In this document: positions 26,020-34,050 of the stretch, piece after piece
Numbering within the stretch: the stretch's first letter is position 1
Layout: every line of letters starts with the position of its first letter
Source: a virus
Direction: 5' to 3' (one strand)
Length of the DNA stretch: 36,154 bases
Virus record (IMG/VR): IMGVR_UViG_3300044732_001712
Span: 1 to 36,154 of that record
The notes under the pieces: model-generated
Database searches by the model: none
Told to the model about the DNA's origin: nothing
The model's input: only the letters and a program-made list of their open reading frames with translations
Translations under genes and position numbers: made by a program

Positions 26020-26414
26020 GGTGAGTGACATGGAATTGACTATTCGTAATAGTTATTCGGGGCACGTAGTGAGATGTTCTCTATCACTTAAATCTATGGG
26101 TACAACAATTTAGACGGAAACGTTTTAAACAAAATGGCTCTAGTAGGTCTTGTACGTCAAGATGAGCTTGTGAACGTAGCGTAAGCAAACACACATTGGG
26201 GTCGGTGGACATATAACCTAGCAACAGAAGTCCCTACAAAGGTGTGGTACCTATCCGAAAAGGTACAAGTGGAGGATTAGTTCTCAGTAAACCGAACCAC
26301 TCTAAAAATAAGGGAATTGTGAAATTTTGGATTGTTAGCTTAAACAATATCCTAAACGTGTAGTCCTTAATAGGTAATACAAGTAACACCGGAGTTCGAG
26401 TCTCCGCACTTCCA
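26020..26414 (+). ncRNA. ssrA: Transfer-messenger RNA (tmRNA)
   Basis: Rescues stalled ribosomes with SmpB. The 3' end has a tRNA-like T-arm (CGGAG TTCGAGT CTCCG, 26390-26406) and acceptor strand CACTTCC + A. The 5' GGTGAGTG pairs with it if one U is bulged, followed by TGGAATTGAC (26031-26040), the tmRNA D-region signature. GGCACGTAG near the 5' side pairs with ACGTGTAGTCC near the 3' side, as in helix 2. A clear H-type pseudoknot lies at 26247-26277 (GTACC/GGTAC with ATCC/GGAT). A tag frame starts at GCT 26137 and ends GCG TAA (26179-26184): ALVGLVRQDELVNVA. Length 395 nt is typical. CCA is not encoded. Confidence 0.87.
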
Positions 26415-26431
26415 CTTTAGACTTTTTTGTA

Positions 26432-26471: not shown

Positions 26472-27302
26472 ATGTCAAGAAAAAAACCTCACATACATTA
26501 CATATACAAGACAACTTGTAATCTCACAAAAAAATATTATATCGGAATGCACAGTACTATTAATCTAAATGATGGTTATATGGGTAGTGGAAAACGATTG
26601 AGATATTCTATTAGAAAATATGGTAAAGAAAATCATATTAAAGAAATTTTGGAATTTTTACCAACAAGAGAAGAATTAATTATTAGAGAATCTGTAATAG
26701 TTGATAAAGTACTATTAACTGATAAACTATGTATGAATATTAAAGAAGGTGGTCAAGGTGGTTTTATAAATGAAGACCATAGATTAAAATGTTCTAAAGC
26801 AGGTAATAAAGCTTTTAGTGAAAAGTTAAAAAATGACCCGGAATTTAAGAAAAAATTTTCTGAGACTAAACGACAAAATTTATTTGATGAAATTTTAGAT
26901 GGTAGAAGAAAACCAATTACCGAAATTGGTGGATGTGATTGGACAGGTAGAAAACATAAAGAAAGTAGTAAAAAACTTGTCGGTGAAAAAAATTCTATAA
27001 CTCAAAAAGGTGAAAAAAACTCACAATACGGAACTTATTGGATAACTAAAAATAATGTTAATAAAAAGATTAAATCAATAGAACTCGATTCTTATCTAAA
27101 TGACGGTTGGGTTAGAGGGGTTAAATCTAAAATAAATGGTGAGTTAGTTAAATCAAGTAAATTAACTAATAATGATGTTATAATAATTAAGCGACTAATA
27201 TCTGAAGGTGTTTTATCAAACCGTAAAATAGGTGAACAATATAATGTTGCCCCACAAACAATAGATAAAATTAAAAGAGGTTTAACTTGGTTTCATATAT
27301 AA
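26472..27302 (+). CDS. GIY-YIG homing endonuclease
   Basis: A 276-aa site-specific nuclease of the free-standing homing type. N-terminal GIY-YIG module: HYIYKTTCNLTKKYYIGMHS (GIY-YIG equivalents IYK..YIG, residues about 9-27), then YGKENHIKEIL and a catalytic Glu in ELIIRESVIVD. Middle: NUMOD3-like short motifs (SKKLVGEKN, GEKNSQYGTYW). The C-terminal helix-turn-helix IGEQYNVAPQTIDKIKRG would bind DNA. It lies directly after the tmRNA on the same strand, which may mean the tmRNA locus is its target or its passenger. A terminator follows. Confidence 0.85.
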   Translation: MSRKKPHIHYIYKTTCNLTKKYYIGMHSTINLNDGYMGSGKRLRYSIRKYGKENHIKEILEFLPTREELIIRESVIVDKVLLTDKLCMNIKEGGQGGFINEDHRLKCSKAGNKAFSEKLKNDPEFKKKFSETKRQNLFDEILDGRRKPITEIGGCDWTGRKHKESSKKLVGEKNSITQKGEKNSQYGTYWITKNNVNKKIKSIELDSYLNDGWVRGVKSKINGELVKSSKLTNNDVIIIKRLISEGVLSNRKIGEQYNVAPQTIDKIKRGLTWFHI

Positions 27303-28634: not shown

Positions 28635-29072
28635 TTATTTTAAGTCTCTTTTCATATCTCTTTCAATATCCCGAGATTTAATACTATCTCGTTTATCGTG
28701 GAGTTTTTTCCCTTTGGCAAGAGCAATCTCCATCTTAACCAATCCGGTCTCATTAATGAATACTCGATAAGGAACAATAGACGTTCCATTGATTAGTTCA
28801 TTCTCCAACTTGTTAAGTTCTTTTCTTTTGGCCAATAGTTTTCTATCCTTTACGGTCTCGTGGAATGAACCATAACCATAATCGGAGATGTTCATACCTT
28901 TTATAAATAATTCACCATCATTAAAATAACAATACCCTTCAGATATGGAGACCTTTCCCTGACGGATTGATTTCACCTCTGAACCAACTAATTGGATTCC
29001 CACAATTAGAGTTTCCAAGAATGAATACTCAAACTTGGCTTTCTTATTGACTATATTAATTGATTTTTTCAT
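28635..29072 (-). CDS. smpB: SmpB, tmRNA-binding protein
   Basis: Partner of tmRNA in ribosome rescue. From Met at 29072 it is 145 aa with the full SmpB pattern: MKKSINIVNKKAKFEYSFLE, then GIQLVGSEVKSIRQGKVSIS, NISDYGYGSF, ALAKGKKLHDKRDSIKSRD and a basic C-terminal tail RDMKRDLK that enters the empty mRNA channel. The start is placed here rather than 16 codons upstream because the longer form runs through the promoter and because SmpB proteins begin like this. The -7 element stands 4 nt before the ATG, so the mRNA is probably leaderless. The phage tmRNA lies 2.2 kb away. Confidence 0.95.
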   Translation of the reverse strand: MKKSINIVNKKAKFEYSFLETLIVGIQLVGSEVKSIRQGKVSISEGYCYFNDGELFIKGMNISDYGYGSFHETVKDRKLLAKRKELNKLENELINGTSIVPYRVFINETGLVKMEIALAKGKKLHDKRDSIKSRDIERDMKRDLK

Positions 29073-29076
29073 AGGA

Positions 29077-29107
29077 CAAAGATAATCTAAAAATTGATAT
29101 AAACAAA
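29077..29107 (-). promoter_or_regulatory. Bacteroidota promoter of smpB
   Basis: Minus strand TTTG (29104-29107), 19 nt, TATCTTTG (29077-29084), then 4 nt to the ATG. The -33 TTTG is the end of the upstream terminator's T-run. Confidence 0.75.
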
Positions 29108-29138
29108 AAACCCCAACCAATTAAATGGTGGGGTTTTT
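29103..29138 (-). terminator. Terminator of the small-gene operon, fused to the smpB promoter
   Basis: Stem CCCC-ACCA/TGGT-GGGG with one bulge, followed on the minus strand by TTTTTTG. The last TTTG doubles as the -33 box of smpB. Confidence 0.75.
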
Positions 29139-32345: not shown

Positions 32346-32498
32346 ATGAAATTAAGAAAAAAAGAAGAAGATAAAAAAGTAAAATTCACGATTTGTGTTG
32401 ACCCGGTGATATATCAAAAAATGGAAGATGAGATGATTAAAAAATCTCGTCTGATTGAAACTTTATTGAAAGAGTATTATGGAAAAAAAGATTTGTAG
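32346..32498 (+). CDS. Small ribbon-helix-helix-like protein
   Basis: A 50-aa protein: basic N-terminus, then KVKFTICVDPVIYQKMEDEM and a final helix SRLIETLLKEYYG. One strand followed by two helices is the ribbon-helix-helix repressor layout (Arc/CopG type). The gene overlaps the HNH gene start by 20 nt in a different frame, so the two are translationally linked, and it may control the nuclease. Confidence 0.6.
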   Translation: MKLRKKEEDKKVKFTICVDPVIYQKMEDEMIKKSRLIETLLKEYYGKKDL

Positions 32499-33063
32499 TA
32501 AATGTAAAGAAGAAAAAGAGGTTTGTGAGTTTGGAAAAGACAAAACAAAAAAATCCGGATATAAATCACAATGCAAGAAATGTGCTAATATTACAACTAA
32601 AAAATATAAATTATTAAATCCCGATAAAATCAAATTAAGTAGAAAAAAAACATACGAGAAACATTTTGATATAATATCAATAAAGAAAAAAGAATACGCC
32701 AGAAAAAATAAAATTAAAGATAATCTTAGACGAAAAAATAAATACCACGCCGACCCATCATATAAATTAAAAGTTAATTTACGAAGACGAATATCGTTTT
32801 ATCTAAAATCTAAAAATATTATAAAAACTAATACAACATTTGATATTATTGGTTGTTCACCTGAATTCTTAAAAGAACATATTGAAAAACAATTTACTGA
32901 AGGTATGTCTTGGGATTTACTGGGTAAACATATCCATATTGACCATATCATCCCATTATCTTCAGCAAAAAATGAAAATGAACTTTATGAACTATGTCGT
33001 TACACAAATCTTCAACCATTGTGGGCTGAGGATAATTTGAAAAAGAGTAACAAAATTTTATAA
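32479..33063 (+). CDS. HNH endonuclease with N-terminal zinc finger
   Basis: A 194-aa homing-type nuclease. N-terminal CSKCKEEKEVCEFGKD then YKSQCKKCANI (four Cys, zinc ribbon), a Lys/Arg-rich linker, and a C-terminal HNH core: HIDHIIPLSSAKNENELYEL (His-Asp-His) then CRYTNLQPLWAEDNLKKSNK (the N..N-K end of the motif). It overlaps the RHH gene and ends at a bidirectional terminator facing the large RNA. Free-standing HNH genes move between phages by cutting DNA of phages that lack them. Confidence 0.88.
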   Translation: MEKKICSKCKEEKEVCEFGKDKTKKSGYKSQCKKCANITTKKYKLLNPDKIKLSRKKTYEKHFDIISIKKKEYARKNKIKDNLRRKNKYHADPSYKLKVNLRRRISFYLKSKNIIKTNTTFDIIGCSPEFLKEHIEKQFTEGMSWDLLGKHIHIDHIIPLSSAKNENELYELCRYTNLQPLWAEDNLKKSNKIL

Positions 33064-33065
33064 AC

Positions 33066-33099
33066 AAAAAAAGGTGTCACATTTCTGTAACACCTTTTT
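33066..33099. terminator. Bidirectional terminator: HNH gene (+) and large RNA (-)
   Basis: Stem AAAAAGGTGT/ACACCTTTTT with inner pairs, A-run and T-run on either side. It ends the plus-strand HNH gene and the minus-strand RNA. Confidence 0.8.
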
Positions 33100-33984
33100 G
33101 GCTAATACGATGAGAATACTCGTCTTATTGAGAATCTTTAGAAGTTTTATTGTTTGACTTCTTTTCCACACCCTTTTGGGATGTAATCCTCATTGCCGAT
33201 TGGTTAGACCAATCACTCCTTACGACATCATTTACTCTCTCATTATTCAACTCTCTTCAAGCTTGCGACCTGACTCCGGATTCGACTCCATAGAGGTTTT
33301 TGGTAAGAATACACATTAACTTGCGGTCTTTGTGTGCTATGGACATCCCATAACTAAGTAGGCAACTTGTCAATGACATCGGGTAGACATTTTTGCTATG
33401 TTTCTTTTAGTTTTTCACCATATTGAAAATAGTAATTGTGTTGTGGATGTGTTCAAGAAGTAGTCTACCATAAGCTTCGTCTCCTTTTGAGAGACAAAAT
33501 ACTAAACTTCTCGATGAGATATCCCTATCTCCAAATTTTAAGACTACTTCAAACTGACACCTTGGTAGATGTTTTGTAAGGACAGTAGCGACACCACTCG
33601 TTCTCTGTCATACCTTTCGGTTTTAAGTCCCCTTTGATATTGGAATCCGTAATTATAAGGTTGGATGACCCTATTTCTCACATAATCCCTATCGGTTATT
33701 CTTCTTGATGTTCCCATCTCAACCTGACGACCCACATCGCCCGGTCACCCAACCACTTTCTCTAAAGCGTTGCCCTCAATACTGAAGGTCAGGTGATATC
33801 CGACTTGTATACTCGAGCTCCCTTTCAGAAGCCGCAGAACCAATAACACTAATGATTCCACTTTATCCCGGTTTCCCGGTTTATTTAAGGATGATATACC
33901 ACCCATTATCGTTTTTTACATCACCGAAGTGTGTAATGGATAATCTAAAATTTCTAAGAACGTTTTGAGGTTTCCCTAATTTGT
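33070..33984 (-). ncRNA. Large structured noncoding RNA (~0.9 kb), ornate-RNA candidate
   Basis: A minus-strand region between a clear promoter and a terminator, visibly richer in GC than the genes around, with stops in all frames except one weak 63-codon stretch. Many helices can be seen: CAC-UUCG-GUG (33922-33931), CCGG-GAAA-CCGG (33868-33879), ACC-GAAA-GGT (33612-33621), a 10-bp helix (33457-33466 with 33541-33550), a 7-bp long-range helix ACCTGAC/GTCAGGT (33722-33728 with 33788-33794), CCATAG/CTATGG (33288-33342), and GATTGGT/ACCAATC (33198-33214). GNRA and UUCG loops are typical of stable RNA. Size, phage setting and nearby tRNA-like genes recall GOLLD or ROOL RNAs, but I cannot assign a family. 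Confidence 0.75.
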
Positions 33985-33988
33985 TTTA

Positions 33989-34050
33989 CAAAGGTAAGTG
34001 ATTTTTTTCAGAAGTCAAACACTTTTGTAATTTTTTTTAATTTTTTTTTT
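33989..34050 (-). promoter_or_regulatory. RNA promoter cassette P1 with A-tract
   Basis: Minus strand: A-rich tract, TTTG (34016-34019), 19 nt, TACCTTTG (33989-33996). Drives the large RNA. One of four cassettes with the same build. Confidence 0.75.

Follow-up and report, generated by a model that had tools for sequence, protein, structure and literature searches.

A phage GOLLD RNA with tmRNA and smpB neighbours and its possible link to translation

Introduction

What is a stretch of about 0.9 kb, rich in helices and devoid of a good reading frame, doing among the tRNA genes of a phage? The locus lies in the window, the whole stretch of 36,154 nucleotides of viral DNA analysed here (IMG/VR virus record IMGVR_UViG_3300044732_001712). 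The original prediction had placed an ornate noncoding RNA at 33070-33984, with its own promoter and terminator, and considered that it may be a new class. Two questions follow, namely to which family this RNA belongs and what its neighbours suggest about its role.

Identity and boundaries of the RNA

An Rfam scan of the window matched RF02032 (GOLLD) at 33514-33107 with 285.5 bits (cut-off 150, E 9e-81), spanning the entire model, positions 1-416 of 416. On sequence grounds, the RNA at 33068-33983 can be firmly assigned to phage GOLLD, an already known family, and the idea of a new class was not borne out, the RNA being GOLLD itself. The Rfam model covers the conserved 3' domain of GOLLD only. 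The 5' half lies outside of it, and an nhmmer search with a profile of this domain gave no match in any of 20 Lactobacillales-type GOLLDs, all of which match in the 3' domain, “Lactobacillales-type” being our label for IMG/VR GOLLDs outside the clade of the window and not a host assignment. These two points would favour a new class of large RNA; however, the 3' domain matches in its entirety, and weaker conservation of the 5' region is described as typical of GOLLD (PMC12286853). The RF02032 match rules out a new class, the probability of which we regard as negligible. ROOL, another large phage RNA found near tRNAs and forming cages (PMC12286853), gave no match in the window at the Rfam gathering threshold.

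The predicted limits proved correct to a few bases, and the strand, which had not been stated, is the minus strand (Table 1). The signals and the composition read from the sequence stood up as well. The promoter is preserved across a 41-sequence alignment of full-length relatives and shows the arrangement TTG-N19-TAccTTTG, which we take to be of the Bacteroidota type; a scan for E. coli-type promoters is uninformative here, the Bacteroidota-type arrangement being outside its coverage. The motif TTG-N17-24-TAnnTTTG was found 5' of GOLLD in 78 of 92 distinct homologues, compared with 1.5% of shuffled upstream sequences. The intrinsic terminator has a comparable hairpin at the same place in four relatives (L036, L042, L056, and L093). 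With 39.3%, the GC content of the stretch exceeds that of the window (31.6%) and falls in the top 0.3% among 915-nt stretches, no reading frame is longer than 63 aa, and the folding energy has a z of -4.4 (20 shuffles). The RNA contains GNRA-like as well as UUCG loops, and compensatory changes accompany the conservation of its helices. The tRNA-adjacent setting, which had been likened to that of GOLLD and ROOL, was also found: a tRNA (34496-34406), a Y-RNA-like/tRNA-like gene, and more tRNA-like genes are located just 5' of GOLLD.

The locus might also be read as the remnant of a decayed protein gene or as a long mRNA leader, for instance of smpB, and the start codon of smpB is indeed at most ~100 nt from the 3' end of GOLLD in several relatives. 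In the four relatives named above, however, an smpB promoter and the ATG come immediately after the GOLLD terminator, so that the two genes are apparently transcribed as separate units. A decayed gene is contradicted by the lack of longer frames and by base changes that are compensatory throughout GOLLD, and no trace of protein-gene decay was seen. As far as sequence goes, frames, smpB promoter, and covariation rule out both versions, leaving them next to no probability.

Table 1. Positions of the GOLLD RNA, its parts, and neighbouring genes in the window
Feature	Positions	Strand	Basis
GOLLD RNA, predicted transcript ~916 nt	33068..33983	minus	RF02032 match and 41-sequence full-length alignment; start site inferred
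Promoter, Bacteroidota type: TTG 34018-34016, 19-nt spacer, TAccTTTG 33996-33989	33989..34018	minus	sequence reading
Intrinsic terminator of GOLLD: 14-bp hairpin (33099-33068) and T-run	33068..33099	minus	sequence
GOLLD 5' domain, core (outside Rfam model)	33533..33901	minus	95 pairs, 96.9% of cells paired, 69 compensatory
GOLLD 3' domain (Rfam model 1-416)	33107..33514	minus	95 pairs, 98.5% paired, 72 compensatory
Variable GOLLD linker, ~64 nt, tRNA-free	33389..33452	minus	aligns to unpaired Rfam stretch
Non-nested helix closing the linker: GGTAGAC 33469-33463 / GTCTACC 33388-33382	33382..33469	minus	100% paired, 6/7 compensatory
Non-nested helix: GTTGCC 33366-33361 / GGCAAT 33197-33192	33192..33366	minus	98.8% paired, 4/6 compensatory
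Non-nested helix: 5'-domain hairpin loop TGTGGG 33736-33731 / linker start TCCACA 33447-33442	33442..33736	minus	99.2% paired, 2/6 compensatory
L21a hairpin GGAGUCGAAUCC, equivalent of symmetric kissing loop B8	33278..33289	minus	loop assigned by numbering
Endonuclease VII/HNH-like gene between GOLLD and smpB, probably inserted	32479..33063	plus	missing from relatives' GOLLD-smpB junction
smpB (tmRNA-binding protein)	28635..29072	minus	PF01668 E 6e-47
Homing endonuclease gene adjoining tmRNA	26472..27302	plus	phrog_314 E 4e-33
tmRNA (ssrA), convergent with GOLLD; tag GNVLNKMALVGLVRQDELVNVA	26021..26417	plus	RF00023 53.1 bits, cut-off 47

Fold and covariation

Covarying pairs were abundant among the homologues. 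In the alignment of 41 full-length GOLLD relatives, compensatory changes were present in 144 of the 195 consensus pairs, and covariation supports both domains. When the 3' partners were moved by one to three columns, the 5' domain showed 36-42% pairing instead of 96.9% and 16-35 compensatory pairs instead of 69; for the 3' domain, pairing was 36-48% instead of 98.5%, with 21-33 compensatory pairs instead of 72. This control favours any structure built from the same alignment, the difference nonetheless being very large. A mutual-information search to which no structure was supplied revealed three non-nested helices, together 99.4% paired and comprising 19 pairs, 12 of them compensatory. One of them closes the linker, whose length varies across the alignment; the equivalent linker is disordered in the published GOLLD cage (PMC12286853).

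Cage assembly

GOLLD ranks among the largest structured RNAs of bacteria and has now been solved as an RNA cage: the cryo-EM structure of GOLLD env-38 is a hollow, self-assembled 14-mer (PMC12286853). The RNA of the window shares with the GOLLD family the full 3'-domain match, a length of more than 800 nt, the division into 5' and 3' domains, a variable linker, and the phage and tRNA setting (PMC12286853). It differs from known GOLLDs by a short, tRNA-free linker, a Bacteroidota-type promoter, smpB and tmRNA neighbours, and the 5' domain of its clade, which is unmatched to the Lactobacillales type.

A symmetric kissing loop of GOLLD, L21a (bridge B8), has a central dinucleotide that alternates between GC and CG (PMC12286853), and the same switch was found here, 33 of the 41 aligned sequences having CG and 8 having GC at the equivalent position; the loop was assigned by numbering and not by structure, nt 656-657 of env-38 lying near Rfam positions 236-239. 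Loops L21b, L22, and L27 are also conserved in these relatives. For contact B7, the kissing of L20 with J13/15, the mutual-information search gave no helix joining loop columns 995-999 to the junction. With the fold and one inter-subunit contact conserved, it is likely, by analogy with env-38, that copies of this GOLLD form a hollow RNA cage. Action as a monomer or small oligomer, serving as scaffold or regulator of one factor with no cage, might be proposed from the 5' domain of this subtype, which has no counterpart at the sequence level among the Lactobacillales-type 5' domains; the L21a switch, the three conserved loops, and the complete, covarying two-domain fold speak against it and make it very improbable.

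Homologues and probable host

A pattern scan of IMG/VR yielded 95 GOLLD loci, most of which aligned over most of the 980-nt query with 68-88% identity. The contigs of the clade are up to 322 kb long. The clade-specific 5' pattern occurs in at least 120 virus contigs and in none of the GTDB genomes, which indicates that this subtype is not commonly a prophage. Judging from the promoter type and the likeness of SmpB to that of Prevotella Lak phages, the host of the window phage is probably a member of the Bacteroidota. Both GOLLD domains are common to two huge phages (LR756502 and LR745206, ~640 kb), which also carry smpB; in these, however, a long distance separates smpB from GOLLD, and neither yielded a full tmRNA.

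The tmRNA and smpB neighbours

The tmRNA of the window displays an acceptor stem with a G3.U70-type pair and tRNA-like ends. ARAGORN made no call on 26021-26417, and a DNA search with this tmRNA against the phage collection gave no match. The tag frame is retained in 13 sequences with synonymous changes, and the tags of the clade measure 21-22 aa and mostly read GNVLNKM...VA; their residues stay constant while the codons change, a sign that the tag is translated. The tag of the window is unusually long (22 aa) and ends in VNVA, those of its relatives ending in -VA or -TA. The usual end of a tmRNA tag is -LAA, and the long tag with its VNVA end may alter the fate of the tagged proteins.

For smpB, an ORF was called at 28635-29120, with MKKSINIV at 29072 as the likely start; the promoter box TTATCTTTG is located immediately before this ATG, as in the relatives. 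The encoded protein is about 50% identical to SmpB of Prevotella Lak phages. With the window SmpB as query, the gene was found to be rare in phages (67 of 50,697 phage records), and no GOLLD occurs within ~8-9 kb of the smpB genes of Lak and other huge phages.

GOLLD, smpB, and tmRNA thus occur together in the window itself, separated by inserted genes: the gap of 6.7 kb between GOLLD and tmRNA arises because genes including the two endonuclease genes of Table 1 intervene. Gaps of 139-3065 nt were observed in a set of 33 long contigs, several of them near-duplicates, in which the protease gene of the window is also present. GOLLD is present in 29 and tmRNA in 30 of these, and wherever both occur (29/29) they are convergent. 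The order protease-tmRNA-GOLLD is maintained across the clade. Widening the set to 49 distinct GOLLDs for which no less than 3.5 kb downstream was available gave a convergent tmRNA in 27 and a same-strand tmRNA in three cases, two further weak matches that resemble tRNAs being left out of the count; 19 of the 49 showed no tmRNA within the available downstream sequence. In six, smpB is placed between GOLLD and tmRNA, on the strand of GOLLD.

Roseophages and other lineages

GOLLD also adjoins a phage tmRNA in the roseophages DSS3_MAL1, MD18, and DSS3P8, where it ends 58, 211, and 171 nt before tmRNA, respectively. The roseophage GOLLDs score 151-170 bits, just over the cut-off. In contrast to the clade of the window, the two genes are arranged in tandem on the same strand, not convergently, the tmRNA is of the permuted alphaproteobacterial type, and two of the GOLLDs contain a tRNA-Arg. 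Since tag type, gene architecture, and orientation differ, common inheritance of the arrangement is unlikely.

tRNA genes within GOLLD were seen in DSS3_MAL1 (L181, 4630-4703), MD18 (L182, 3082-3155), and the Sinorhizobium jumbo phage Phosso (L186, 3083-3154). In Phosso and in Mesorhizobium phage Cp1R7A-A1, GOLLD and tmRNA are both present, far apart. None of the 20 Lactobacillales-type GOLLD records contained a full tmRNA, and none was found in the GOLLD-bearing Acinetobacter phage Herod and mycobacteriophage Send513. RcXuper and RpAliso carry a tmRNA, before which no divergent GOLLD was detected at E <= 0.1.

Possible function

The presence of tmRNA and SmpB in huge phages was already known (PMC7162821). 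A literature search, in which the original GOLLD paper was beyond reach, found no paper linking GOLLD with tmRNA or SmpB in phages. What is new here is the phage neighbourhood of GOLLD, often with the ribosome-rescue genes tmRNA and sometimes smpB, rather than the RNA itself. The genomic pairing with tmRNA and SmpB, which two phage lineages display, directs attention to ribosome rescue or translation and makes the role of GOLLD testable.

Taken as a whole, the locus is likely best explained as a GOLLD cage RNA of a large phage, probably of Bacteroidota, working with the phage translation kit. The parts of this reading differ in strength, and the link to translation is only suggestive. It is conceivable, and we put it forward tentatively, that the cage has a role involving ribosomes, tRNAs or rescue factors. 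Copies of GOLLD would assemble into the hollow cage, which would hold or shield ribosomes, tRNAs or tmRNA late in infection; its partners would be the phage's tmRNA, SmpB, and phage tRNAs, and phage translation could thereby continue during the destruction of host mRNA. A narrower version, in which the cages are part of phage trans-translation and capture stalled ribosomes, tRNAs or tmRNA-SmpB, draws on at least two independent GOLLD-tmRNA pairings and is rather doubtful.

Both GOLLD and tmRNA favour tRNA islands, and their closeness may therefore reflect a shared location only. The cage would then be real and the tmRNA and smpB neighbours meaningless, products of shared tRNA islands and inherited synteny, with GOLLD fulfilling another role such as the storage of metabolites or proteins. 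GOLLD frequently adjoins tRNA genes (PMC12286853, PMC6582537), many GOLLDs come without a tmRNA, and the protease-tmRNA-GOLLD order is retained in the clade as a whole, all of which would fit such an account. Yet GOLLD is paired with tmRNAs of different structure in two lineages that are unrelated, convergently in one and in tandem in the other, and smpB, rare as it is in phage records, joins the pair. A purely positional association is the main rival, and we hold it to be unlikely.

Other small RNA candidates upstream of GOLLD

Several small RNA candidates were noticed on the minus strand upstream of GOLLD. A YrlA-like (Y-RNA-like) gene at 34595-34494 scored 37.3 bits, under the cut-off of 69; its T-arm precedes its D-arm, as in a circularly permuted tRNA, and its outer stem covaries in relatives. 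Ro60 was rejected as a partner of this gene, no Ro60/TROVE gene being present in the window or in 24 of 24 IMG/VR relatives searched; among the huge phages, LR745206 carries one and LR756502 does not. Partial YrlA matches also adjoin the tmRNA of RcXuper and RpAliso.

The tRNA at 34496-34406 was called Thr(GGT) by ARAGORN, with a hairpin-like D-loop insert conserved in 8 of 8 aligned sequences; a plain cloverleaf reading would give the anticodon CGA or TGA. Next to it, a structured RNA of ~235 nt (34394-34160) displays a 13-bp closing stem and a z of -2.9; it is kept to 99.6% in one relative (L089), and in another (L058) the same ends flank a different, shorter centre. Two tRNA-like genes at 35100-34673, which received no tRNA call from ARAGORN or Rfam, have a common acceptor stem (TAGTCAGG/CCTGACTA) and long inserts, and their common T-arm is found again at several sites in relatives. 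The promoter cassette occurs a second time at 34118-34035, where it precedes ~85 nt conserved in one relative (L028) and may drive a small RNA, and another similar cassette is located at ~34650.
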